Positions 1 to 12,355 of a stretch of 12,355 bases of DNA are shown here, one piece after another. The notes beneath the pieces are model-generated. The model was not told the origin of the DNA, did no database searches, and saw only the letters and a program-made list of their open reading frames with translations. Within the stretch, counting starts at the first letter, position 1; each line of letters begins with the position of its first letter. This DNA comes from Chloroflexota bacterium (GTDB lineage: Bacteria > Chloroflexota > Anaerolineae > Promineifilales > Promineifilaceae). The stretch is taken from assembly GCA_008501785.1 (NCBI GenBank), contig QQUD01001093.1, positions 1 through 12,355 of the forward strand, in the 5' to 3' direction. A program made the translations under genes and the position numbers.

Positions 1-1458
1 CGATAAATGCCCCGTCATTTGCTCATACGCTTCATCTATCGCGTCTTGATTGACGTGCAGTTCGACCAGCCGTGCTTCAAATTTGAGCGGCAGGGTTGCT
101 TTGTCCCGAATCGAATCTTCAAAGGAGTAGCGGTCCAGATAGCCGTTTTCGTCTTCTTCTGCGCCAAAGGCGTAAAAGGTGTTGCGGTCTCGTTTGTTGA
201 TGGGGGTGCCGGTGAGACCAAAGAGGAAGGCGTTCGGCAATGCTTCGCGCATGAAGCGGCCCAAATCTCCTTCCTGGGTGCGGTGCGCTTCATCGACCAT
301 AATGATGATATTGGAATCGGTATTTAGGGCTTCGGTGGCTTCGGCGAATTTGTGGATGGTGGTGATGATGATTTTGCGCACCCCTTTGCGCAGTAAATCT
401 TGCAGTTCATCCCGTTTGTCAGTAGTAACGACGTTGGCCACATCGTTGGCGAGGAAGGTGCCGCTGATTTGGGTGTCCAGGTCCACGCGGTCTACGATGA
501 TCAGGACGGTGGGCTTTTTTAGTTCGGGGATGGTGCGCAGGAGCTGTGCGGCAAAGAGCATGAGCAGCGATTTACCGGAGCCTTGGAAGTGCCAGATGAG
601 ACCTTTGCGCGGCCGTCCCAGCACGACGCGACGCACAATTTTGAGTGCAGCGTAATATTGCTGGTAGCGGGCGATGATTTTGATCATTCGCCCTTGTTTG
701 TTGGTGGCGTAGGTGGTGAAGTGGCGCAGCATGTCCAGCACCACGCGCCGGTCCAGCATGGCCCGCACCGTATCGGCAACAGCTTGTAACCCTTCATGCT
801 CGGGTTCGGTTTGGTCGCTGTTGTGCCAGGGACCCCAATGTTGCAAGGGCGCCTGCACGGAGCCGTACCGGTACACTTTGCCTTCGCTGGCAAAGCTGAA
901 GATGTTAGGCACAAAGAATTGCGGCACGGCTTCTTCGTACCCTTGAATTTGCACGGCCGCATCAAACCAGGACCACGCCGAACGTACTGGCGTTTTGGCT
1001 TCACCCACGACCAGCGGAATGCCGTTCACAAACAGCACATGGTCAAACCGTTTTTCGACGGCAGCAGGTTTGAAGGTGACTTCTTCGCTGACGATGTAGC
1101 TGTTGTTGTCGAGATTATCATAATCAATGAGGCGGATGGGGACGTGGCGGTTGTTTTTGCCGAAGGGCATCGTGATGTCGTTGAGCAGCCATTCGGACAT
1201 GCGCTGGTTGGCGCGGATCAGGCCGTCTGACTGCACGGTGAGCAGGATGGCCCGCAGGCGGTGAATGACTTCATCAGCACGGGCGGGTTGGGCAGCGATT
1301 TCGGGATTTAGCCTTTGCAGTGCGGCGGTGAGCTCATCCAGCAGAAACACATCCCGAATAGAGCGGTTGAGGTCAATCGCTTTGACTTCCTGCCAGCCTA
1401 ATTCGCGGCGCAGAATGTCGGTTATTTGACGTTGGGTAGTGTTGTTTTCGTTAAACAT
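1..1458 (-). CDS. hsdR: Type I restriction enzyme R subunit HsdR (partial, C-terminus beyond window)
   Basis: This is the motor and nuclease subunit of a Type I restriction-modification complex: ATP-driven DNA translocation followed by cleavage of unmethylated DNA. The frame is open for all 486 codons from ATG 1458 to the window edge. The N-terminal nuclease domain has the PD-(D/E)xK pattern: D139 in FDHVLF, then E153 and K155 in GEAK. The helicase motor follows with Walker A QGSGKS (K296), DEAH at residues 389-392 and motif III TGTP at 416-419. HsdR proteins are usually about 1000 residues, so roughly half is missing, including the second RecA lobe. The start lies 26 bp after the lipoprotein stop, with only a weak AGGT ribosome site. 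The first 33 codons are duplicated upstream at 2503-2601, where hsdR would normally begin next to hsdS. GC content is clearly higher than in hsdS or the lipoprotein gene. Confidence 0.96.
   Translation of the reverse strand, partial: MFNENNTTQRQITDILRRELGWQEVKAIDLNRSIRDVFLLDELTAALQRLNPEIAAQPARADEVIHRLRAILLTVQSDGLIRANQRMSEWLLNDITMPFGKNNRHVPIRLIDYDNLDNNSYIVSEEVTFKPAAVEKRFDHVLFVNGIPLVVGEAKTPVRSAWSWFDAAVQIQGYEEAVPQFFVPNIFSFASEGKVYRYGSVQAPLQHWGPWHNSDQTEPEHEGLQAVADTVRAMLDRRVVLDMLRHFTTYATNKQGRMIKIIARYQQYYAALKIVRRVVLGRPRKGLIWHFQGSGKSLLMLFAAQLLRTIPELKKPTVLIIVDRVDLDTQISGTFLANDVANVVTTDKRDELQDLLRKGVRKIIITTIHKFAEATEALNTDSNIIIMVDEAHRTQEGDLGRFMREALPNAFLFGLTGTPINKRDRNTFYAFGAEEDENGYLDRYSFEDSIRDKATLPLKFEARLVELHVNQDAIDEAYEQMTGHLS
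1360..1458 (-). repeat. Direct repeat: 5' end of functional hsdR (copy A)
   Basis: This 99-bp stretch encodes HsdR residues 1-33. It matches 2503-2601 in the same orientation with 11 mismatches by hand alignment (88/99). The similarity ends abruptly after the Ser33 codon. Upstream of the start, a short GATAG resembles the hsdS tail that precedes copy B, so the repeat may extend weakly in that direction. The two copies flank the lipoprotein gene. Confidence 0.9.
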
Positions 1459-2608: not shown

Positions 2609-3787
2609 CTATCCTGAAAGGAATTGACTCAAAAGCGCATTTTTTAAATTGATGGACTTTAGAACTTTTTGTTGCACAGCCTGAAACGCTTCTTCACATA
2701 TTTGAAGTTGTTCTAAAATCTCCTCTTGCATTTCAAGAGTTGGCAGTAATACTGGAACTTGTGACAGACTTTTTCTATTAATTTTTTTCATGCTGGCACT
2801 TGTTCCAGCAGAAATTCGTTGTAATTGGAACCTCCCTTCCCTAGAAAGTAGATACTGTTCAAGATACTTTTTGTTGATTTTTGATTCATCAACTGGAAGT
2901 CGCATCATTGTATCTGGAAAAGATACATCCAAACGATCTTCATTGAAGATTCCAACTAAACCAACCAACTCTCTAGTATTTGAACGTGAAATTAGAAAAT
3001 CATTTTTATAGAGGAGAGCAGCCCGCATTTGCGAGGTCAATTCTACTGTTTTTAGATGTCCAAATTCATAACCTGTTTTGCTTAATGCAGAAAGGGAAAG
3101 CACAAAATGCCCAGTAACCTTATCCACACTATGCGCTGAATGACCGCTTTCAGGATTACCGGTCAAAAGGTTTATGAGTTTGACGGTCTTTGCTGTATTT
3201 GATGTCTTGTGAATTAGTTGCTCACGAAACGCTCTTTGTAAATTAAAGGCTTGTTCTTCGCTATTTTGAAATTGTCGAATTGTTTCCTCAACGGCCGTTA
3301 ACACCTCAGCAATCCGTCTCTGCTCATCTGGAGGGGGCAGCGCAAATTCATACTTGGCGATGTCTTTCCAATTGACATACGGATTTGTAGAACCACGAGA
3401 GTTCTTGATTGAATGCTCTACAAATGGCTCACTCTGCATAATAAATGGCAAAAGCGGCGGGTAAATTTTCTCTGGTATAGCTTCAATAACAAAAGTTGTA
3501 TTGGCGCAGATACCATCAAATTCAGCAACGGCAACTTTGCGCAAATAGGTACGGCGTGAACCATATAGTATTTGCCCTTTCTGAAACTTGCGGTGAAATG
3601 CTGGCCCAAGATACCCGTCCCCAACTATCCCCCAGCGACGGATTTTCAGATCATCGGTATTCATATGTCCACCAGCCACATACCGATCTAAATCGCTTGT
3701 TTCGGGGTTGACTTTATCTTTGATTTGTCTGGCAACTTCGCCAAATTTCACCAAAGTCCAGCCAGCTTGTTTATTATGCTTATTCAT
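2609..3787 (-). CDS. hsdS: Type I restriction-modification specificity subunit HsdS
   Basis: HsdS chooses the bipartite DNA target and holds the methylase and motor subunits together. The protein is 392 residues with two target-recognition domains (about 9-150 and 200-348). Each is followed by a conserved helical spacer: PPPDEQRRIAEVL onward (151-195) and LPTLEMQEEILEQL to the C-terminus (349-392). Both halves are complete, so the target should be a normal two-part site. I chose ATG 3787, giving an N-terminus of MNKHNKQAGWTLV that places the typical GW-LV start of domain 1 at residues 9-13. This start overlaps the hsdM stop by 8 bp (ATGAATAA), implying translational coupling. An in-frame ATG at 3814 would add 9 residues and is less likely. 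The gene is AT-rich like the 3' half of the upstream hsdM, which suggests the two moved together. Confidence 0.95.
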   Translation of the reverse strand: MNKHNKQAGWTLVKFGEVARQIKDKVNPETSDLDRYVAGGHMNTDDLKIRRWGIVGDGYLGPAFHRKFQKGQILYGSRRTYLRKVAVAEFDGICANTTFVIEAIPEKIYPPLLPFIMQSEPFVEHSIKNSRGSTNPYVNWKDIAKYEFALPPPDEQRRIAEVLTAVEETIRQFQNSEEQAFNLQRAFREQLIHKTSNTAKTVKLINLLTGNPESGHSAHSVDKVTGHFVLSLSALSKTGYEFGHLKTVELTSQMRAALLYKNDFLISRSNTRELVGLVGIFNEDRLDVSFPDTMMRLPVDESKINKKYLEQYLLSREGRFQLQRISAGTSASMKKINRKSLSQVPVLLPTLEMQEEILEQLQICEEAFQAVQQKVLKSINLKNALLSQFLSG

Positions 3788-5255
3788 GAAGTTTGTCGTC
3801 TTGTAAAATGGCAAATAAAGTATCCATTGAAGCTCTTAAATCTTGTGAACTTTGCTGCCATTCTGCCAAAATGATTGGCAGTGATTTTTGAATGCCATAA
3901 ATGTGAATGTTGTTTAGCACGTAATAATCTATTTTGAGCGACGCATCATTTGCGAGAATAGCGTCAATATTTACAACTTTGGCAAATTGCTCAATATCCT
4001 CATACGCTTGATAAGCTGAAATAATCTTTTCAATGTGCGTATCTTCTAAATAACTGTTTGTCTTCTGGCGTGTTACCTCATTCACCGCATTGATAAACAA
4101 AATCTTACCTTGCCTGTCTTTCGTTTTTTGACTGCGGCAAATAACAATACAAGCTTCCATCGAAGAGTTGTAAAAAAGATTTTCACCAATGCCTATAATC
4201 GCTTCAATGAGATCGGCTTCAATGATGCTTTTCCGCATATGTTGTTCATCTTCACGAAACAACACACCATGCGGAAAAAGAATGGCACAACGGCCACTTT
4301 TCTCGCTCATGCTGGCGAGAATATGCTGCCAAAATGCAAAATCAGCACGTCCTTGCGGCGGTAATCCATACACATTTCTTGGATCATTTTCCCATTTGTC
4401 GCGGTTCCAGCTATTAATCGAATACGGTGGATTCGCCAGAATCACATCAAACTGCTGCAAGCGATTGCCCTGCTTAAAATAAGGGTTGGCTAACGTATCC
4501 CCACGCACCACCTGAAAATCCTCAAAGCCATGCAAAAACAGGTTCATCCGCGCAATCGCCGAGGTCATCAGGTTAATTTCCTGACCCGCCATGCGCAGCG
4601 TGCGCGTGTCCTGCCCGCGCCGCTTCAACTCATCTGCCGCCGACAGCAGCATCCCACCAGAGCCGCAGGTGGGGTCATAAATACTTTCACCCTCTTGCGG
4701 CTGCAACAGCAGCGTCATCAAATGCACCACCGTGCGATTCGTATAAAATTCAGCGGCCGTGTGGCCACTGTCATCGGCAAACTTCTTGATCAGATACTCA
4801 TACGCCTGCCCCAACAAATCCTCATTCACCCGCGCCCGCGAAAGCGTCTGCGTCGAAAAATGCTCCAACAAATCCGTCAACGTCACATCAGAGAGGCGGT
4901 TTTTATTCGTCCACGGTGCATCCCCAAAAATACCGTCCAGCAGCGGATTCGCCTTTTCAATCTCGCGCATTGCGTTTTGAATCCCCACGCCAATATTTTG
5001 CGTGACGGCCCGCACATCCTGCCAATGCGCCCCCTCCGGTATTTGAAAGCGATGGTATTCTGGAAAGTCATCCCCCACTTCCGCCACCGACTGCGCCCGC
5101 TCCTCATCATACACATCACACAGCCGTTTAAAAAACATCAGCGGGAAGATAAACTGCTTGTAATCCCCGGCATCAATAAACCCGCGCAGCAAAATCGCCG
5201 CGCCCCACAAATATGATTCCAGTTCGGATTGGGTAATGGATTGATTATTACTCAT
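3780..5255 (-). CDS. hsdM: Type I restriction-modification DNA adenine methyltransferase HsdM, copy 1
   Basis: Predicted N6-adenine methyltransferase subunit of the Type I complex, 491 residues. It has the helical HsdM N-terminal domain (about 10-140), the SAM-binding motif DPTCGSGG (194-201) and the catalytic motif NPPY (275-278), so catalysis looks intact. The conserved EFYTPR motif before motif I reads EFYTNR (169-174), losing the usual proline. The C-terminal segment, which contacts HsdS in this family, is shorter than in copy 2, and DWNLNIPRYV of copy 2 corresponds to a divergent DASLKIDYYV here. It starts 9 bp after the CBS/HEPN gene and overlaps hsdS by 8 bp. Hand counts give 58-62% GC in 5' sample windows (4621-4680, 4801-4860) but 35-40% in 3' windows (4021-4140), indicating a mosaic gene. 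It is clearly paralogous to copy 2. Confidence 0.94.
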   Translation of the reverse strand: MSNNQSITQSELESYLWGAAILLRGFIDAGDYKQFIFPLMFFKRLCDVYDEERAQSVAEVGDDFPEYHRFQIPEGAHWQDVRAVTQNIGVGIQNAMREIEKANPLLDGIFGDAPWTNKNRLSDVTLTDLLEHFSTQTLSRARVNEDLLGQAYEYLIKKFADDSGHTAAEFYTNRTVVHLMTLLLQPQEGESIYDPTCGSGGMLLSAADELKRRGQDTRTLRMAGQEINLMTSAIARMNLFLHGFEDFQVVRGDTLANPYFKQGNRLQQFDVILANPPYSINSWNRDKWENDPRNVYGLPPQGRADFAFWQHILASMSEKSGRCAILFPHGVLFREDEQHMRKSIIEADLIEAIIGIGENLFYNSSMEACIVICRSQKTKDRQGKILFINAVNEVTRQKTNSYLEDTHIEKIISAYQAYEDIEQFAKVVNIDAILANDASLKIDYYVLNNIHIYGIQKSLPIILAEWQQSSQDLRASMDTLFAILQDDKLHE

Positions 5256-5264
5256 AAAATTTGC

Positions 5265-7061
5265 TTACAATATCTCTTTACCTATGGCTTCTACTATTGG
5301 CAGCATAATTTGAACAAATTTGACCATTGTGGGAACTGCATCCTTGCGTAATGCAGTTAAGTCCTCTTCGCTATCTGTAATTCGCGCTTTATAGATACGA
5401 GAAATACGACAGGCACGTTTACTGTCCAAACGTTGCCATAAAAGCTCATGTCCTAAAGCCGTTTCTATTTCCTCTTTTTGTTCTTTAAGTTTGTCGAAAA
5501 ATTGCTTATTAAGCTCTTTGTCGCCAAAGTCAATATAAAATTCAACCCGAAAAATCCCCCCGCGTCCAAAAGAGTAATTTGATGAACCTAGATGACGGCC
5601 TTGAACGCCGAAATTTTTTGTCCAATACCAATTGGCTCCATCAGGACGTGGTGTATGCAAATGACTAAACAGCGGCTTTTCTCTTAGTTCATTAATTAAT
5701 GCACTATAGAAGTCTATATAAGCTCTTTGTCTTTCTTGAATTCTGGCGAAACGCGCAACCTGATTTGTCATATTAACTGAGGCAACACGCCATCCTACAT
5801 CAAGCCATTGCTTTGATTGCACATGCCCAACTGAATCATTTGCCCACCACGAGCGGTTTTTGTAAGCTGATGCAGGTAATTTTCCACCAATAATTTCTTC
5901 AATTTTTGAAAAAGTTGGTTTGACAATTTTCTTTTCAATGGGTTGATTTTGCAGCCAAATTGCAAGAGCTGCATATTTGCTTTCACCAGGAGCAGGTTCA
6001 TCAGCAATCGGTTGAATTTCCTGATCTGGTGCAGGTTCCTGTTCTTCCTCAATATCTAAGATTTCATCTGCGATAGAATCGTCGGGTGCGAAAACATCAT
6101 AAATTGCGGCTTGATGACTGACCAGCAAGTCATAGCAGTCTCGTAATTGAACACTTTGGTCGCGTGTGATTTCTCGGAAATGGGAAAGAGCGTTCCGTGT
6201 TTCACGAACATTGTCTAATAAATTTTGGAGAGACTTTTTCTCTAGTTCAAATATGTTCTCGTATTGAGACCAATGTTCCCTAAATAGAAACAAACTTATA
6301 TATTGGCCAAGCGTGAGATCATCAAAACTAACAGGTGGCCGTCTATCAACTATATGTTTTTCATACGTTTGGTTGAACAACTCATCATTAAAAGAAACGC
6401 TTTCTTCAGGTAGCGCATTTAGATAACTTTTTACGGCTTCAACAAATAATTGTGTATTGAAAACTTCATCAAACAGATCATCATCAAAAGGAAGGCACAC
6501 TGAGCTTAAATATTCTTTAAGTCCTTTTTTGAACTTTCGACGAATTCCAAAACTAGCACTTGTATTGCCTTGGATTAATTCAGTTAACCGAGCTTCTCCT
6601 TCAGGACTGCTGCTAAAAGCTAATTGCGTGTAATCTTTCAAGGTATTCTCAATATTTTCTACCAAAATAATATCTTTTGCTCTTTGCTGAAAATATTGAG
6701 CCGTATCATAGTCGGTAATGATTTGGATCAGCTTATCTTCATCATCTACAACAAGAGCAAGATTACCTGTCATATCCTCGAATAAATCAAGCAAGTCAAT
6801 ATTTTGATTGACTTGCTGTGGTTTGGTAAGCAAAGCATGTTTGATGCGAACGCCCTCAATAGACGTTGCATAATTATGCAAGGCTTTCAGAACTGAATCA
6901 CTCGTAATGATGCCAATCGGACAATTGTTTGAATCTACCACAGGCAATTGCGTGAAATCATTTTCTATCATTCGTTTAACGGCCGTTTTGATAGAATCGT
7001 CTAAGGTAACTGTCTCAACAGGGAGTTTATCTTTGATGAACTCTTGTACTGTCGTTGTCAT
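5265..7061 (-). CDS. CBS / HEPN-like / DUF7662-like / DUF4268-like accessory protein in the hsd operon
   Basis: A 598-residue soluble protein with four recognisable parts. Residues about 5-130 form a tandem CBS pair (FTQLPVVD-PIGIITSDSVL and LALVVDDEDKLIQIITDYD), a module that usually binds adenine nucleotides. Residues about 135-325 are helical and contain RETRNALSH; R289 to H294 fits the Rx4-6H ribonuclease motif of HEPN domains with the typical Asn after Arg, resembling Swt1-type HEPN. An acidic, proline-rich linker (325-360) follows. Residues 361-440 resemble DUF7662 (KYAALAIWL, SAYKNRSWWANDS, GWRV). Residues 443-595 resemble DUF4268 (RQRAYIDFYSALINELR, then FRVEFYIDFGDKE and QKEEIETALGHELLWQRL). 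It overlaps the upstream hsdM by 4 bp (ATGA) and precedes the second hsdM by 9 bp, so it belongs to the same operon. A role as a nucleotide-gated backup nuclease guarding the restriction system is my inference. Domain names come from memory of family patterns. Confidence 0.85.
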   Translation of the reverse strand: MTTTVQEFIKDKLPVETVTLDDSIKTAVKRMIENDFTQLPVVDSNNCPIGIITSDSVLKALHNYATSIEGVRIKHALLTKPQQVNQNIDLLDLFEDMTGNLALVVDDEDKLIQIITDYDTAQYFQQRAKDIILVENIENTLKDYTQLAFSSSPEGEARLTELIQGNTSASFGIRRKFKKGLKEYLSSVCLPFDDDLFDEVFNTQLFVEAVKSYLNALPEESVSFNDELFNQTYEKHIVDRRPPVSFDDLTLGQYISLFLFREHWSQYENIFELEKKSLQNLLDNVRETRNALSHFREITRDQSVQLRDCYDLLVSHQAAIYDVFAPDDSIADEILDIEEEQEPAPDQEIQPIADEPAPGESKYAALAIWLQNQPIEKKIVKPTFSKIEEIIGGKLPASAYKNRSWWANDSVGHVQSKQWLDVGWRVASVNMTNQVARFARIQERQRAYIDFYSALINELREKPLFSHLHTPRPDGANWYWTKNFGVQGRHLGSSNYSFGRGGIFRVEFYIDFGDKELNKQFFDKLKEQKEEIETALGHELLWQRLDSKRACRISRIYKARITDSEEDLTALRKDAVPTMVKFVQIMLPIVEAIGKEIL

Positions 7062-8554
7062 TTAAGCTCTCCTGGTGGCATCAGATCAGCATCAATTAAT
7101 AGTTGCTTCAATTTATCTTCAGCAGCATAGGCTTCTGCCAAAGCATTTTGTAAATTGGTTAAGGCTTCTTCCACAGTGATCGTTTCTTCTTCAATAATGG
7201 GTTCGACGTAGCGAGGAATATTGAGGTTCCAATCATTGGCTTCAATCTCGGCCAGCGTCACCACTTTGGCGTGCCCTTCCACATCTTCGTAGTTTTGTAC
7301 CCACGTCAAAATTTTTTGGGCGTGTTCTGGTTCGAGCGTGTTTTGGTTACGGCCGCTTTTGTACAAACTCGACGCATCCACCATCAACACTTCATCGGGG
7401 TGTTTTGTCTGTTGGCTAAAGATGAGGATACAGGCTGCCAGCCCCGTGCCATAGAAGAGGTTTGGTCCCAACCCAATCACCGCATCGAGCAGATTCATTT
7501 CCAGAATCTTTTGCCGTATTTTGCCTTCCTTGCCCATGCGGAACAGCACCCCATGCGGCAAGACGACCGCCATACGGCCGTTTGTCGGGTGCATCGACTT
7601 AATCATGTGCTGTACCCAGGCAAAATCCCCATTTTTGTTGGAAGGCAGTCCGGCAAAGTTACGTTTGTAGCGATCCGTTTCCCAAACTTCCAAGCCCCAC
7701 TGCTCCAACGAAAACGGTGGATTGGCGATGACCACATCAAATTGTTGCAACATGTCGCCGCTGTGAAACGCGGGATGCCGCAGCGTATCCCTACGCACAA
7801 TCTGAAAATCTTCAATGCCGTGCATAAACAGGTTGATGCGAGCGATGCTGGATGTGGTCAGATTCTTTTCCTGCCCATACAGCTTGCCCAGCAGCGTTTC
7901 GATACGGCCGCCTTGATTGCGCACATGGTTAATGGCTGCCAGCAGCATTCCACCCGTACCGCAAGCTGGATCATAAATCGTTTCACCCGGCTCAGGATTC
8001 AAAATATCCATCATCAACTGCACGACGCTACGCGGCGTGTAAAATTCGCCCGCTTTTTTATTCGTCGCGTCGGCAAACTTCTTGATCAAGTATTCGTATG
8101 CCTGACCCAGCACATCCGGCTCCACATGGCTGTTAGACAGTAGGAGTTCAGAAAAGTGCTCAATCAAGTCTGTTAGCAGCGCATCAGAGAGGCGTGCTTT
8201 GTTGCTCCATTGTGCGTCGCCAAAAATGTTGTGCAGTTGGTCTTGGTTAGCGGATTCAATCGCACGAAACGCATTTTGTAGTGCAATGCCGATATTTTGT
8301 GAAACAGCTCGCACGTTTTGCCAATGAGCACCATCGGGAATTTGGAAGCGATGATTTTCGGGAAAGTCGATGCCATATTCGGCAACGGCTTGCTCACGCT
8401 CTTCATCATAAACATCTGAAATACGCTTGAAAAAGAGCAGGGGGAAGATATATGTTTTGAAATCGGAAGCATCAACAGGGCCGCGTAAAATATTGGCAGA
8501 CTCCCACAAATGAGCTTCGAGTTGTGAAAGGGTTACGTTGGCTGATTCACTCAT
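7058..8554 (-). CDS. hsdM: Type I restriction-modification DNA adenine methyltransferase HsdM, copy 2
   Basis: A 498-residue HsdM with all hallmarks: helical N-terminal domain, EFYTPR (170-175), SAM motif DPACGTGG (195-202) and catalytic NPPF (278-281). The C-terminal DWNLNIPRYV segment and a final helical region complete it. NPPF and NPPY are both normal for adenine methylases. It is the first gene of the operon, and its TGA overlaps the ATG of the CBS/HEPN gene (ATGA). Copies 1 and 2 align end to end with many identical blocks (HRFQIP-GAHWQ-VRAV, GQAYEYLIKKFAD, DVYDEER), so they are ancient paralogues rather than a fresh duplication. With a single hsdS nearby, the complex could contain one of each methylase, or one copy could serve another role. 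No strong ribosome site precedes the ATG. Confidence 0.95.
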   Translation of the reverse strand: MSESANVTLSQLEAHLWESANILRGPVDASDFKTYIFPLLFFKRISDVYDEEREQAVAEYGIDFPENHRFQIPDGAHWQNVRAVSQNIGIALQNAFRAIESANQDQLHNIFGDAQWSNKARLSDALLTDLIEHFSELLLSNSHVEPDVLGQAYEYLIKKFADATNKKAGEFYTPRSVVQLMMDILNPEPGETIYDPACGTGGMLLAAINHVRNQGGRIETLLGKLYGQEKNLTTSSIARINLFMHGIEDFQIVRRDTLRHPAFHSGDMLQQFDVVIANPPFSLEQWGLEVWETDRYKRNFAGLPSNKNGDFAWVQHMIKSMHPTNGRMAVVLPHGVLFRMGKEGKIRQKILEMNLLDAVIGLGPNLFYGTGLAACILIFSQQTKHPDEVLMVDASSLYKSGRNQNTLEPEHAQKILTWVQNYEDVEGHAKVVTLAEIEANDWNLNIPRYVEPIIEEETITVEEALTNLQNALAEAYAAEDKLKQLLIDADLMPPGELK

Positions 8555-9677: not shown

Positions 9678-11108
9678 ATGCGTTTACTTGTCACCGGCAA
9701 GACTCGAAGCGGTAAATCCACCACTTTGCATCGCTGGCTCAGCGAAACTCTGAACCGTGATTGCTGGCTGCGCATCATCCTGCTAGATGGAAAAGGCGTT
9801 GAACTTAACGCCTACTCCAACCTGCCCCACAAGCCCCGCCTCACATACTACGGCCCAAACGAGCTAGACCGCTGGGCTGACATTCTAGGGTTTCTGGCGA
9901 TCGGTCTTGAAAAACGGTATCAGCAGCTCAACCAACGTGGCCTGCGCGAAGCCGATCCAGATGACAAACGCAACCTGCTGATTATCGACGAGGTGCAAGT
10001 GGGATGTCGGGATAAAGAAAACGGCCGTTTCATCAAACAACACCTCACCCGCATCGCCGAACAATCCGCCGCCTTGCGTGACGTCATCATCATCACCTGC
10101 CAACGCGAACAAAACAGCGTACCTCCCGCTGTACGCTGGAACTGCTCCGCCAAACTTCGCTTGATGGGCAACGGCTACTTCCACTACCAGCCAGACGGCA
10201 AACCTCACATCGCCGGCAAAATCCCATACCTTTCATTAGACGAAGCCATCACCCACCTAAAAGACTGCCCGACTAACGACGACAAGACTATCGACTACCT
10301 GACTACCAACACCCTCCTCGACCTTCTCCAAGCCCATCACAGCGACCAAAGCCGCACCGCCCGCGCCAATGCAACCCTCTACCTCGGTGCAGACGGCAGC
10401 GGCAAAACCTACCGCTTACAAAAACACCCCGATCCCAAAACATCCCGCCGCATCTACGCCGACTTGCTCGACAGTCACCGAACCTGGCTGCTAACCATCC
10501 TAGAGTCATGCGGAGCCACCCCACCCACCAAAACGACCACTACCCAACTAGCCACCCTGGCCATGTTGGCCATCCAGGCCGAACCAACCACACTCCTTCT
10601 CGACAACATCGATCACGCCAATGTTGCAGCCCGCAAATCTATTCTCACCCTTATCAATGCCACAGAAATTTGTGCCTTGGCAGCCTGCCCACCTGATACA
10701 CCCACACTAAAACGCAAAATAAACCCGCTCATTTCCCGCTGCACCGTCGTTCGCATCCCACCTTTGACTACAGAACAAGCTGCCGCCCTGGCTGACCAGG
10801 AACTGCCACCCGACATCCCACGCCGCGCTGCCACACTGCGCCGTATTGTTGACATGGGCAGCGGCCATCCGGCCACCATCGTCAATCTTTGCCGCCAAGC
10901 TAAACGCGGCACCTTGCGCGAATTACGGCATCTGGAAAATGCGCCCAAGCGATTCAACCTGGTCTGGCTACTGCTGATCCCCATCCTGATTTTGATCATC
11001 ATCTGGCGTTACCGCATCGATAGCTACATGGCCAGCGCATTGCTTCTTACCATGCTCATGTTACTGCGCCCGATTATTTATCGTTCAGTACGGCAAACAT
11101 CCACCTAG
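9678..11108 (+). CDS. Membrane-anchored tandem ATPase: FtsK/SpoIIIE-like plus AAA-like domain
   Basis: A 476-residue protein with two nucleotide-binding domains. Domain 1 (1-195) has Walker A GKTRSGKS (7-14), the FtsK-like signature DGKGVELNAYSNLPH (37-51; DPKxVEL in FtsK), Walker B LLIIDE (100-105) and CQREQNSVPPAVRWNCSAKLRLM (split as 141-158 and 159-163), matching the FtsK TQRP segment. Domain 2 (about 225-420) has Walker A GADGSGKT (237-244), Walker B TLLLDN (305-310) and a small helical lid, as in AAA/ORC-like ATPases. Two membrane helices (427-444 and about 450-468) close the protein, placing both ATPase domains in the cytoplasm. It is much shorter than chromosomal FtsK and lacks its N-terminal four-helix anchor and gamma domain. 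DNA pumping or transfer at the membrane is plausible but inferred. It is co-directional with the hydrolase/HlyD-like gene 91 bp downstream. The start ATG appears leaderless. Confidence 0.85.
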   Translation: MRLLVTGKTRSGKSTTLHRWLSETLNRDCWLRIILLDGKGVELNAYSNLPHKPRLTYYGPNELDRWADILGFLAIGLEKRYQQLNQRGLREADPDDKRNLLIIDEVQVGCRDKENGRFIKQHLTRIAEQSAALRDVIIITCQREQNSVPPAVRWNCSAKLRLMGNGYFHYQPDGKPHIAGKIPYLSLDEAITHLKDCPTNDDKTIDYLTTNTLLDLLQAHHSDQSRTARANATLYLGADGSGKTYRLQKHPDPKTSRRIYADLLDSHRTWLLTILESCGATPPTKTTTTQLATLAMLAIQAEPTTLLLDNIDHANVAARKSILTLINATEICALAACPPDTPTLKRKINPLISRCTVVRIPPLTTEQAAALADQELPPDIPRRAATLRRIVDMGSGHPATIVNLCRQAKRGTLRELRHLENAPKRFNLVWLLLIPILILIIIWRYRIDSYMASALLLTMLMLLRPIIYRSVRQTST

Positions 11109-11133
11109 AAAATTATTGCTTGACAACCCGACC

Positions 11134-11182
11134 CCAGGGCGCGGCACACAAAAACAGCCTTTAGACACGCGCCGCGCCCTGG
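11134..11182. repeat. 12-bp GC-rich inverted repeat
   Basis: CCAGGGCGCGGC (11134-11145) and GCCGCGCCCTGG (11171-11182) are perfect complements around a 25-nt loop. No T-run follows on either strand, so this is not a standard intrinsic terminator. It lies in the 91-bp gap between the ATPase and hydrolase genes and would form a strong hairpin in a read-through transcript. It could be an attenuating or stabilising hairpin, or a REP-like element. A consensus -35 hexamer TTGACA (11120-11125) precedes it but has no -10 partner. Confidence 0.7.
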
Positions 11183-11199
11183 CCTTAACCAAGAAAATC

Positions 11200-12355
11200 A
11201 TGCGCTACTTTCTCAACTTCCAAGGTCCACTTATCCACACCCTTGCTGGACTCTTGTCCCCATTTTGGTTTTATGCCTGGACCCAAGCCCAACCTGATTT
11301 TCGCGTCCTGGCCGCCTGTGTTCTCATTGCTTTGCTCCCTGACATCGACAGTCAGGCTTCTGTCATTGGACGTCTATTCCCGTTTCTCAGCGTATCCCTC
11401 GAACGCCGCTTTGGTCACCGGCAGATTACTCATTCATTGTTGGCTGTGGGAGTGGTAACGGCCGTTACCTACCTCCTTTTCCGCAACGACTGGTGGCTGC
11501 TCACCGCCGCCTACGGTTCCCACCTCTTCATCGACATGCTCGTCGGCTATATCGGCATCCCGCTTCTTTGGCCGCTCCAGGTCCGTTTCTACCTACTCTC
11601 TATCCGCCCCCAATCCATCGGCGAACTACTACTCGGCTGTTGCATCGGAGTTGCCTTGCTTATTCCTCTCTTTGACACCGGCCGCAACCGTGTCGCCAGC
11701 CTCATCCCCCAAGAAGACATCGCCCTCGTTCCTTCCGCGACGCCTACACCATCCCCCACACCACGTATCGTCACCATCCGCATCCAAAACGTCTACGACC
11801 TTGACAACGAAATCCTCATCAGCATAGGCGACACCGTCCAACGAGGCCAACTCATCGCCAACCTCTTTACTCACTATCAACTCATCGCTACACCAACAAA
11901 CACCCTAACAGCGACTGTTACAATCACCCCATCACCAACTTACCCAATCCCGCCTACACCATTCGACACCCCCGATCCACTATACATCGCCCAACTCGAA
12001 AACAACCTCCACCTTGCCCAAGCCCGTTACAATGCTGTCATCGCTACAACCACTCCAAACCCATTGCGCCTGGACTACATTGCTGAATTGGAACAACAAA
12101 TTGCTGACCGCCTGCAATGCATCGGGGATATCAGCCGCAACCAGCTTGATTGGCGTGCGTGGGGTTGCAAAGTCGAATATGAAGAAATGAGTACCCAAGT
12201 CGCCATTCTCGCAGCCACGGCTGCCCCCCAATCCGCTGATATTCTTGATGCGGACATCGCTTACTACCAACTCCAATCTGCCCAAATTGCTTACGCCCAA
12301 GCCATTGCCCAACTCACTCCCCAACCCACTCCAACACCTACAAATACACCAACAA
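11200..12355 (+). CDS. DUF457/YdjM-type membrane metal-dependent hydrolase fused to an HlyD-like region (partial, C-terminus beyond window)
   Basis: Open from ATG 11200 to the right edge, 385 codons. Residues 1-160 form a multi-pass membrane domain with DUF457/YdjM motifs: H13, LLPDIDSQ (D48, D50), RRFGHRQITHSL (H73, H78) and GSHLFIDML (H108, D112), the presumed metal ligands. A TPTPSPTP linker (181-188) leads to a short barrel-sandwich segment (about 189-222) containing ISIGDTVQRGQLIANL, which resembles biotinyl-lipoyl or HlyD modules. A second Thr/Pro-rich stretch (230-258) and a helical, Gln/Ala-rich coiled-coil-like part (260-372) follow, then another PTPTPTNTPT run at the edge. HlyD adaptors usually have one N-terminal membrane helix; here a whole hydrolase domain takes that place, an unusual fusion. 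The linker style is common in Chloroflexota. No ribosome site precedes the ATG. The substrate is unknown. Confidence 0.82.
   Translation, partial: MRYFLNFQGPLIHTLAGLLSPFWFYAWTQAQPDFRVLAACVLIALLPDIDSQASVIGRLFPFLSVSLERRFGHRQITHSLLAVGVVTAVTYLLFRNDWWLLTAAYGSHLFIDMLVGYIGIPLLWPLQVRFYLLSIRPQSIGELLLGCCIGVALLIPLFDTGRNRVASLIPQEDIALVPSATPTPSPTPRIVTIRIQNVYDLDNEILISIGDTVQRGQLIANLFTHYQLIATPTNTLTATVTITPSPTYPIPPTPFDTPDPLYIAQLENNLHLAQARYNAVIATTTPNPLRLDYIAELEQQIADRLQCIGDISRNQLDWRAWGCKVEYEEMSTQVAILAATAAPQSADILDADIAYYQLQSAQIAYAQAIAQLTPQPTPTPTNTPT
11455..11468. repeat. 14-bp perfect palindrome GTAACGGCCGTTAC, best copy of an over-represented RCGGCCGY octamer
   Basis: This lies inside the hydrolase gene and extends the RCGGCCGY core found ten times in this window. 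The ten octamers are at 609, 953, 3291, 4753, 6979, 7349, 7574, 7904, 10021 and 11458. Four have the longer form AACGGCCGTT. Because they occur within unrelated coding genes, they look like a genome-wide signature rather than a site for one gene. Confidence 0.7.

Follow-up and report, generated by a model that had tools for sequence, protein, structure and literature searches.

A CBS-pair protein with a predicted HEPN domain, related to DS-11, is encoded between two hsdM genes of a Chloroflexota Type I locus

A protein that joins a CBS pair, a predicted HEPN domain and a DUF7662-DUF4268 tail is encoded between two hsdM genes in a 12,355-nt stretch of Chloroflexota DNA (contig QQUD01001093.1, hereafter the window), which confirms an observation made in a first-pass annotation of the same sequence. 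Comparison of sequences places the family of this protein as a sister architecture of DS-11 and not as a DS-11 member. DS-11 is a one-protein anti-phage system in which Y157, in the CBS region, and the HEPN catalytic residues are needed for defence, as reported in the sections of PMC13092281 used here, and CBS-HEPN fusions had been noted already in 2013 (PMC3710099). CBS-HEPN defence proteins are not new, and the four-part architecture differs from DS-11 by a missing N-terminal region and an added tail. The earlier interpretation of the gene is, overall, partly supported.

The gene is a member of a Type I operon

The candidate gene is a minus-strand ORF running from 7061 to 5265, a strand that the first-pass annotation had not given, and it encodes 598 aa. 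Gene order in the window is hsdM1, candidate gene, hsdM2, hsdS, a 324-aa lipoprotein-like ORF and hsdR, and hsdM, hsdS and hsdR, the last cut by the window, share one strand, which identifies a Type I locus. Pfam matched the hsd genes as N6_Mtase/HsdM_N twice, Methylase_S and HSDR_N/SWI2_SNF2, and the methylase motifs are intact in both neighbours (DPACGTGG/NPPF in one, DPTCGSGG/NPPY in the other). The ATGA overlap with the upstream hsdM (8554..7058) can be read directly on the sequence, and the 9 nt described between the candidate gene and the second hsdM separate its stop codon from the ATG of hsdM2 (5255..3780). The gene is an operon member, and its contexts are recurrent defence contexts.

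7058..8554, minus strand: hsdM1, first methylase subunit gene (Pfam and methylase motifs)
5265..7061, minus strand: CBS pair-HEPN-DUF7662-DUF4268 protein, 598 aa (ORF, Pfam and homologues)
3780..5255, minus strand: hsdM2, second methylase subunit gene (Pfam and methylase motifs)
2609..3814, minus strand: hsdS, specificity subunit (ORF from TTG; an ATG overlaps the hsdM2 stop)
1..1458, minus strand: hsdR, cut at the window edge (Pfam)

A 100-nt duplicate of the start of hsdR occupies 2504-2603, 90% identical to 1361-1460; it is placed upstream of the real hsdR start, after hsdS and before the lipoprotein-like ORF, and resembles what a cassette insertion at the hsdS/hsdR junction would leave behind. 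Locus L001 has nothing at this junction. The lipoprotein-like ORF (1485-2459, inside the hsd locus) had no match in Pfam or PADLOC, and with a homologue (3e-54) after hsdM2 in genome G435 (L097:7661-8527) it may be another recurrent cargo. Beyond the hsd operon, a plus-strand FtsK/SpoIIIE-like ATPase gene (9678-11108; 2.9e-10), followed by an ORF at 11116-12354, may point to a mobile element.

Domain layout and conservation

The layout proposed from the letters of the sequence, a CBS pair, a helical domain bearing RNALSH, an acidic linker and two DUF domains, was borne out by Pfam and by an AlphaFold2 model. In the window protein Pfam matched CBS over two stretches (7.8e-17), DUF7662 at residues 377-439 (1.4e-10) and DUF4268 at residues 449-586 (3.3e-19). 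The model has a mean pLDDT of 89.3 and falls below 50 in one stretch only, residues 329-347, inside the acidic linker.

6681..7061, minus strand: CBS pair, residues 1-127 (Pfam, model and Foldseek matches)
6954..6956, minus strand: F36, aligned with Y157 of the DS-11-type E. coli protein (alignment)
6705..6716, minus strand: T116-xx-D119, second CBS motif (alignment)
6087..6674, minus strand: predicted HEPN region, residues 130-325, including the segment between the CBS pair and the HEPN core (model and profiles)
6180..6197, minus strand: RNALSH, an Rx4-6H motif, residues 289-294 (sequence and alignment)
6021..6077, minus strand: low-confidence part of the acidic linker, residues 329-347 (model)
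5745..5933, minus strand: DUF7662, residues 377-439, possibly winged-helix (Pfam; weak fold match)
5304..5717, minus strand: DUF4268, residues 449-586, with a suggested chaperone/YbjN-like fold (Pfam, PADLOC and fold match)

A protein search returned 268 homologous proteins at E <= 0.001 among 7997 candidates scored, and all three Pfam domains were present in 117 of the best 120. Conservation was read from a 117-row alignment of the members 500-650 aa long among these best 120, window protein included. R289, N290, H294, D119 and E138 are invariant in its 117 rows, which answers a check on the R/H pair that the first-pass annotation had proposed. CBS, DUF7662 and DUF4268 are each found in 60/60 members of a 60-member alignment.

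The central domain is a predicted HEPN domain

RNase L, RloC and PrrC depend on the H of the HEPN motif, and KEN and PrrC on its R (sections of PMC3710099). The same source describes the motif of active-type domains as Rx4-6H, in which a polar residue follows the R, with an acidic residue further upstream, and places it at the end of helix-3, before helix-4. RNALSH follows this rule, with R, then a polar residue, then H, and in the model R289-H294 lies at the end of helix 275-293, ahead of helix 300-315, which matches the published place of the motif. Among the 60 members, HEPN_Swt1 was matched in 25 at E <= 0.1 (best 1.9e-5), with further matches to Abi_2 in seven, HEPN_Apea in six and DUF4145, which we take to be a HEPN family, in five. 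The window protein alone matched HEPN models at E 0.064 and 0.095, under their curated cut-offs.

Fold searches gave CBS-domain matches throughout the best 50 of 792 rows for the whole model and no match at E <= 0.001 for residues 130-598, and the fold comparison (VIA rows) covered mainly DUF4268. Solved HEPN structures are absent from the fold matches listed; these lists were filled by CBS or DUF4268 matches and left the HEPN part unreached, and thus neither confirm the fold nor count as evidence against it. Motif, profile and homology together support the HEPN identity first proposed for the central domain, and the protein is likely an RNA-cutting enzyme.

The CBS pair and its candidate ligands

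The proposal that the CBS pair senses adenine nucleotides fits the conservation of its nucleotide-site determinants. Position 36 is F or Y in 115 of the 117 rows and E in two, and T116 is kept as T in 116 rows and D119 as D in all 117; we take T116-xx-D119 to be a ribose contact. The member in the hsdM1/hsdM2 junction of G418 carries E in place of F/Y at the adenine-contact position. The best fold matches (50 listed of 792) include the SAM/MTA-bound CBS pair of MJ0100 as well as AMP-, ATP-, c-di-AMP- and Ap4A-bound pairs, so that these matches do not single out one ligand.

The DUF7662-DUF4268 tail

For DUF7662 there was a weak winged-helix fold match, and for DUF4268 the fold rows indicate chaperone/YbjN-like folds at middling Z; a reading of DUF4268 as a nuclease was not adopted on the strength of these rows. 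DUF4268 is described as recurring with restriction proteins (in part of PMC4619093). The tail is probably portable, since DUF7662-DUF4268 is joined to a different N-terminal region in L034:8560-10062 and L035:9587-11086, and Pfam found no CBS or HEPN match in these two proteins (genomes G347 and G365). Short proteins whose match to the family model is confined to DUF7662 occur in two genomes (L019:1498-2013 and L025:1489-2028), each directly preceded by a similar ORF of 431-434 aa. The PADLOC candidate PDC-S11 has the C-terminal DUF4268 region in common with the window protein (438-593, 3.8e-21), but its match is limited to that region and leaves the CBS, HEPN and DUF7662 parts uncovered.

Relation to DS-11

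The NCBIfam model NF053863 (DS-11, CBS domain-containing anti-phage protein) matched the window protein best over residues 14-149 (2.3e-25), at 89.3 bits against a cut-off of 260, so the protein falls outside DS-11 by this model. By comparison, the same model gives 393.5 bits to P0121, a 334-aa Chloroflexota protein that is a DS-11 member. A profile of 29 DS-11-type proteins compared with the 60-member family gave a probability of 99.8 and E 7.6e-29 over residues 2-317, and it brings the RNxxxH motifs of the two profiles into register. In KE47, a 365-aa DS-11-type protein of E. coli whose numbering we equate with that of PMC13092281 from the Y at 157, Y157 aligns with F36 of the window protein.

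Both proteins therefore have a CBS pair followed by a HEPN domain with RNxxxH and an aromatic residue at the Y157 position. The DS-11 N-terminal region of about 90 residues before the CBS pair is, however, absent from the window protein, in which the alignment starts at DS-11 residue 93, and DS-11 is without the DUF7662-DUF4268 tail that forms a two-domain extension in the window family. It is on these two differences that we separate the architectures. The earlier statement that no described system has this architecture thus holds only for the full four-part protein, its CBS and HEPN half being that of published DS-11. A literature search whose scope left aside subscription journals and most preprints found no paper on the four-part protein in hsd operons.

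Family loci and their neighbourhoods

Surveys with the family alignment were positive in 24 of 400 Chloroflexota genomes at E <= 1e-20 (many matches partial), in 5/56 genomes of the order at 1e-40 and in 7/396 of the class at 1e-60, the samples overlapping and being centred on gene-carrying genomes. Further order surveys (3/82 and 1/9 genomes positive) gave no new family locus, and a genome-contig scan with the single window protein as query found one locus. Besides the window, 14 genomes and one Anabaena plasmid make up 15 family loci, all 15 with RNxxxH, which in G359 lies within the second of two ORFs. Seven of the 15 were scanned with the Pfam CBS and DUF7662 models, and the remaining eight were counted by alignment match or tblastn. 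The count excludes L034 and L035 (G347, G365; no CBS or HEPN match), L037/L023 (G083), which is a DS-11 member, and the partial matches L011-L022 and L024-L026.

The 15 other loci comprise four Type I hsd, two DISARM, one Type III and eight elsewhere.

G001: hsd locus, between hsdM1 and hsdM2, gene order as in the window
G418: hsd locus, between hsdM1 and hsdM2, same slot as the window
G404: another Type I locus, flanked by hsdS (with a 171-aa ORF) and hsdM
G556: member without DUF4268, behind hsdR of a dual-hsdM operon
G079 (L031): DISARM locus, with DrmD, DrmMI and DrmA models matched
G035 (L032): DISARM locus, assigned by the same gene order as L031
G548: Type III locus, with Type III methylase, ResIII and GmrSD_N proteins
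Anabaena plasmid: member adjoining Avs2
Remaining seven loci: G310, G359 (copy split over two frames), G042, G427, G533, G495 and G421 (3.4-kb contig)

Homologues thus recur near hsd genes (4/15 other loci), which answers another check of the first-pass annotation, but the narrower claim of a guard of a Type I system stays unproven, with 11/15 outside hsd loci and three of these 11 in DISARM or Type III loci. RM or DISARM genes were absent from eight of the 15 within the parts examined, where hsd genes were sought with the window's proteins and few ORFs were compared with PADLOC or Pfam, so that other defence genes may be missed. Loss of the CBS pair in the G418 member was considered and rejected, as Pfam found CBS there.

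In the family tree, one 9-row clade (96/91) holds the members from the window and G001, and the G418, G404 and G556 members sit on other, partly long branches. These separate branches point either to more than one origin of hsd linkage or to rapid divergence of the protein in situ. The window protein had no match among phage records and no relative among viral contigs, which gave 15 pattern matches; among plasmids, 60 records matched and one of them, Anabaena pANA01, covers at least 80% of the query.

The hsdM1/hsdM2 junction

With HsdM1 as query (E <= 1e-120), 21/396 class, 6/400 phylum and 4/56 order genomes were positive, 26 distinct genomes in all. We read 27 loci, window included, and both hsdM genes and their junction were visible in 19; the slot count leaves out eight loci in which one hsdM or a contig end was seen (L096, L097, L100, L101, L105, L107, L108 and L109). 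Eight of the 19 junctions are occupied and 11 are empty.

Window, G001, G418: CBS-HEPN-tail family
G662: DUF3644 protein, with RNRIAH
G722: weakly HNH-like protein (0.005, below cut-off)
G626: DUF433 protein
G612 and G556: ORFs without a Pfam match

DUF3644 is listed as a HEPN family (in part of PMC3710099), and the junction is a variable cargo slot that takes two unrelated HEPN families. Between the window and G001 or G418, HsdM1 is 86% and 84% identical and the candidate protein only 66% and 43%, so that the cargo diverges more quickly than the genes that frame it. Of the seven family carriers in the 396-genome sample, three are among the 21 hsdM1 genomes, with both genes in one locus each time (hypergeometric P 0.004); without G001, the sample centre, two of six carriers are among 20 of 395 genomes (P 0.03).

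Dual-hsdM Type I operons recur in Chloroflexota (19 junctions), and the motifs of both hsdM genes are intact in the window; the two HsdM proteins may form a mixed M1-M2-S enzyme. In L105, hsdM1 is followed by a GmrSD_N protein. In two dual-hsdM operons an AAA ATPase gene follows hsdM2 (L089:3545-4732, PADLOC HEC-02A, and L090:5164-6348), and the post-hsdM2 site is a second cargo position.

Discussion

The explanation that we favour, at somewhat better than an even chance, is that the protein is a ligand-gated HEPN endoribonuclease carried as second-line cargo in DNA-modification defence loci, docked by its tail and co-expressed with the methylase. The CBS pair would bind an adenine-containing ligand and control a HEPN dimer, as proposed for DS-11, and the DUF7662-DUF4268 tail would be a DNA- or protein-binding module that docks the protein to a DNA-modification defence complex. 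The gene would travel as cargo inside defence loci, in the window between hsdM1 and hsdM2, where it would be expressed together with the methylase. Infection would alter the ligand pool or disturb the Type I complex, and RNA would then be cut and growth stopped, behind restriction. We infer the RNase activity, the identity of the ligand and its gating role, the dimer, tail docking, HsdM contact, silencing by the methylase and growth arrest, and likewise that the methylase either holds the protein in check or is watched by it. DS-11 homology, the invariant R, N and H, the CBS residues, the operon fit, the recurrent linkage and the DUF3644 protein of the slot speak for this explanation. Against it count the eight other family loci with no RM or DISARM genes in the parts examined, the 11 empty dual-hsdM junctions, which make the cargo dispensable, the G418 slot member without the aromatic residue, the HEPN models below cut-off for the window protein, the fold comparisons, none of which confirmed HEPN, and a co-occurrence whose P of 0.004 includes the survey-centre genome and becomes 0.03 without it.

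Several of these points would suit an independent DS-11-like gene that rides hsd, DISARM and Type III defence islands for co-expression and that the methylase neither silences nor triggers, a possibility to which we give a real but minority chance. DS-11 is reported to act as a single gene (PMC13092281, in part), the empty junctions and the loci outside RM and DISARM, as far as examined, are what such a gene would leave, and its position in hsd loci varies, from the slot (window, G001, G418) to before hsdM (G404) or behind hsdR (G556). Yet the tail that DS-11 lacks is kept throughout the 60-member alignment, its DUF4268 part is the one found with restriction proteins in the portion of PMC4619093 cited above, and two unrelated HEPN families occupy the same junction. 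We think it very unlikely that the protein is a regulator and not a killer, that is, an RNA- or DNA-binder that tunes hsd expression or the methylase by nucleotide level without cleaving RNA. CBS pairs are common in regulators (several among the NCBIfam matches), DUF7662 has its weak winged-helix match, and some motif-less HEPN proteins are taken as non-catalytic binders (PMC3710099, in part), but here the catalytic residues R, N and H do not vary, DS-11 needs its HEPN catalytic residues for defence according to the same part of PMC13092281, and the gene is missing from most dual-hsdM operons.

On a more far-reaching reading, the slot could be a standing place for restriction guards and the cargo a cofactor guard, whose CBS pair would read the SAM/MTA or ATP/AMP pool and whose HEPN domain would fire when a phage attacks restriction by way of that pool. 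The adenine-ligand pool read by the CBS pair would then be the pool on which methylase and translocase depend. A 2025 review (PMC12707154, section 74) suggests that systems still to be identified by experiment may be triggered by metabolite depletion, for which it gives T3 SAMase as an example, and the presence of a CBS pair makes this a candidate reading and not a result. The G418 slot member without the aromatic residue counts against it, and we hold this reading to be unlikely.

The idea of a second-line system embedded in a Type I locus is already known, with PrrC and DarTG2 as examples (parts of PMC12707154 and PMC12255303). Like the genes of PrrC and RloC, the window gene lies inside a Type I hsd locus, in this case between hsdM1 and hsdM2, and encodes a candidate HEPN ribonuclease with a putatively nucleotide-responsive part (PMC3710099, PMC2610378 and PMC12707154, in part). 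PrrC and RloC have an ABC ATPase domain and not CBS, whereas Pfam found no ABC ATPase match at E <= 0.1 in the window protein, and, according to PMC2610378, PrrC orthologues always accompany Type Ic systems, unlike the window family with its 11 of 15 other loci outside hsd. DarTG2, between hsdS and hsdR, is likewise a second defence module within an hsd operon, but it is a toxin-antitoxin pair at a different junction, and the part of PMC12255303 used here reports no CBS or HEPN domain for it.

The relatives of the window protein in several DNA-marking defence loci suggest a second line of defence. A newly validated type of CBS and HEPN effector is in this way linked to Type I, DISARM and Type III loci, where the conserved tail could dock it, and one junction of dual-HsdM Type I operons takes up what appear to be two unrelated HEPN proteins. 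Should the coupling to the methylase be real, the protein would be a compact and testable example of a guard that keeps watch on pools of nucleotides or cofactors during anti-restriction.
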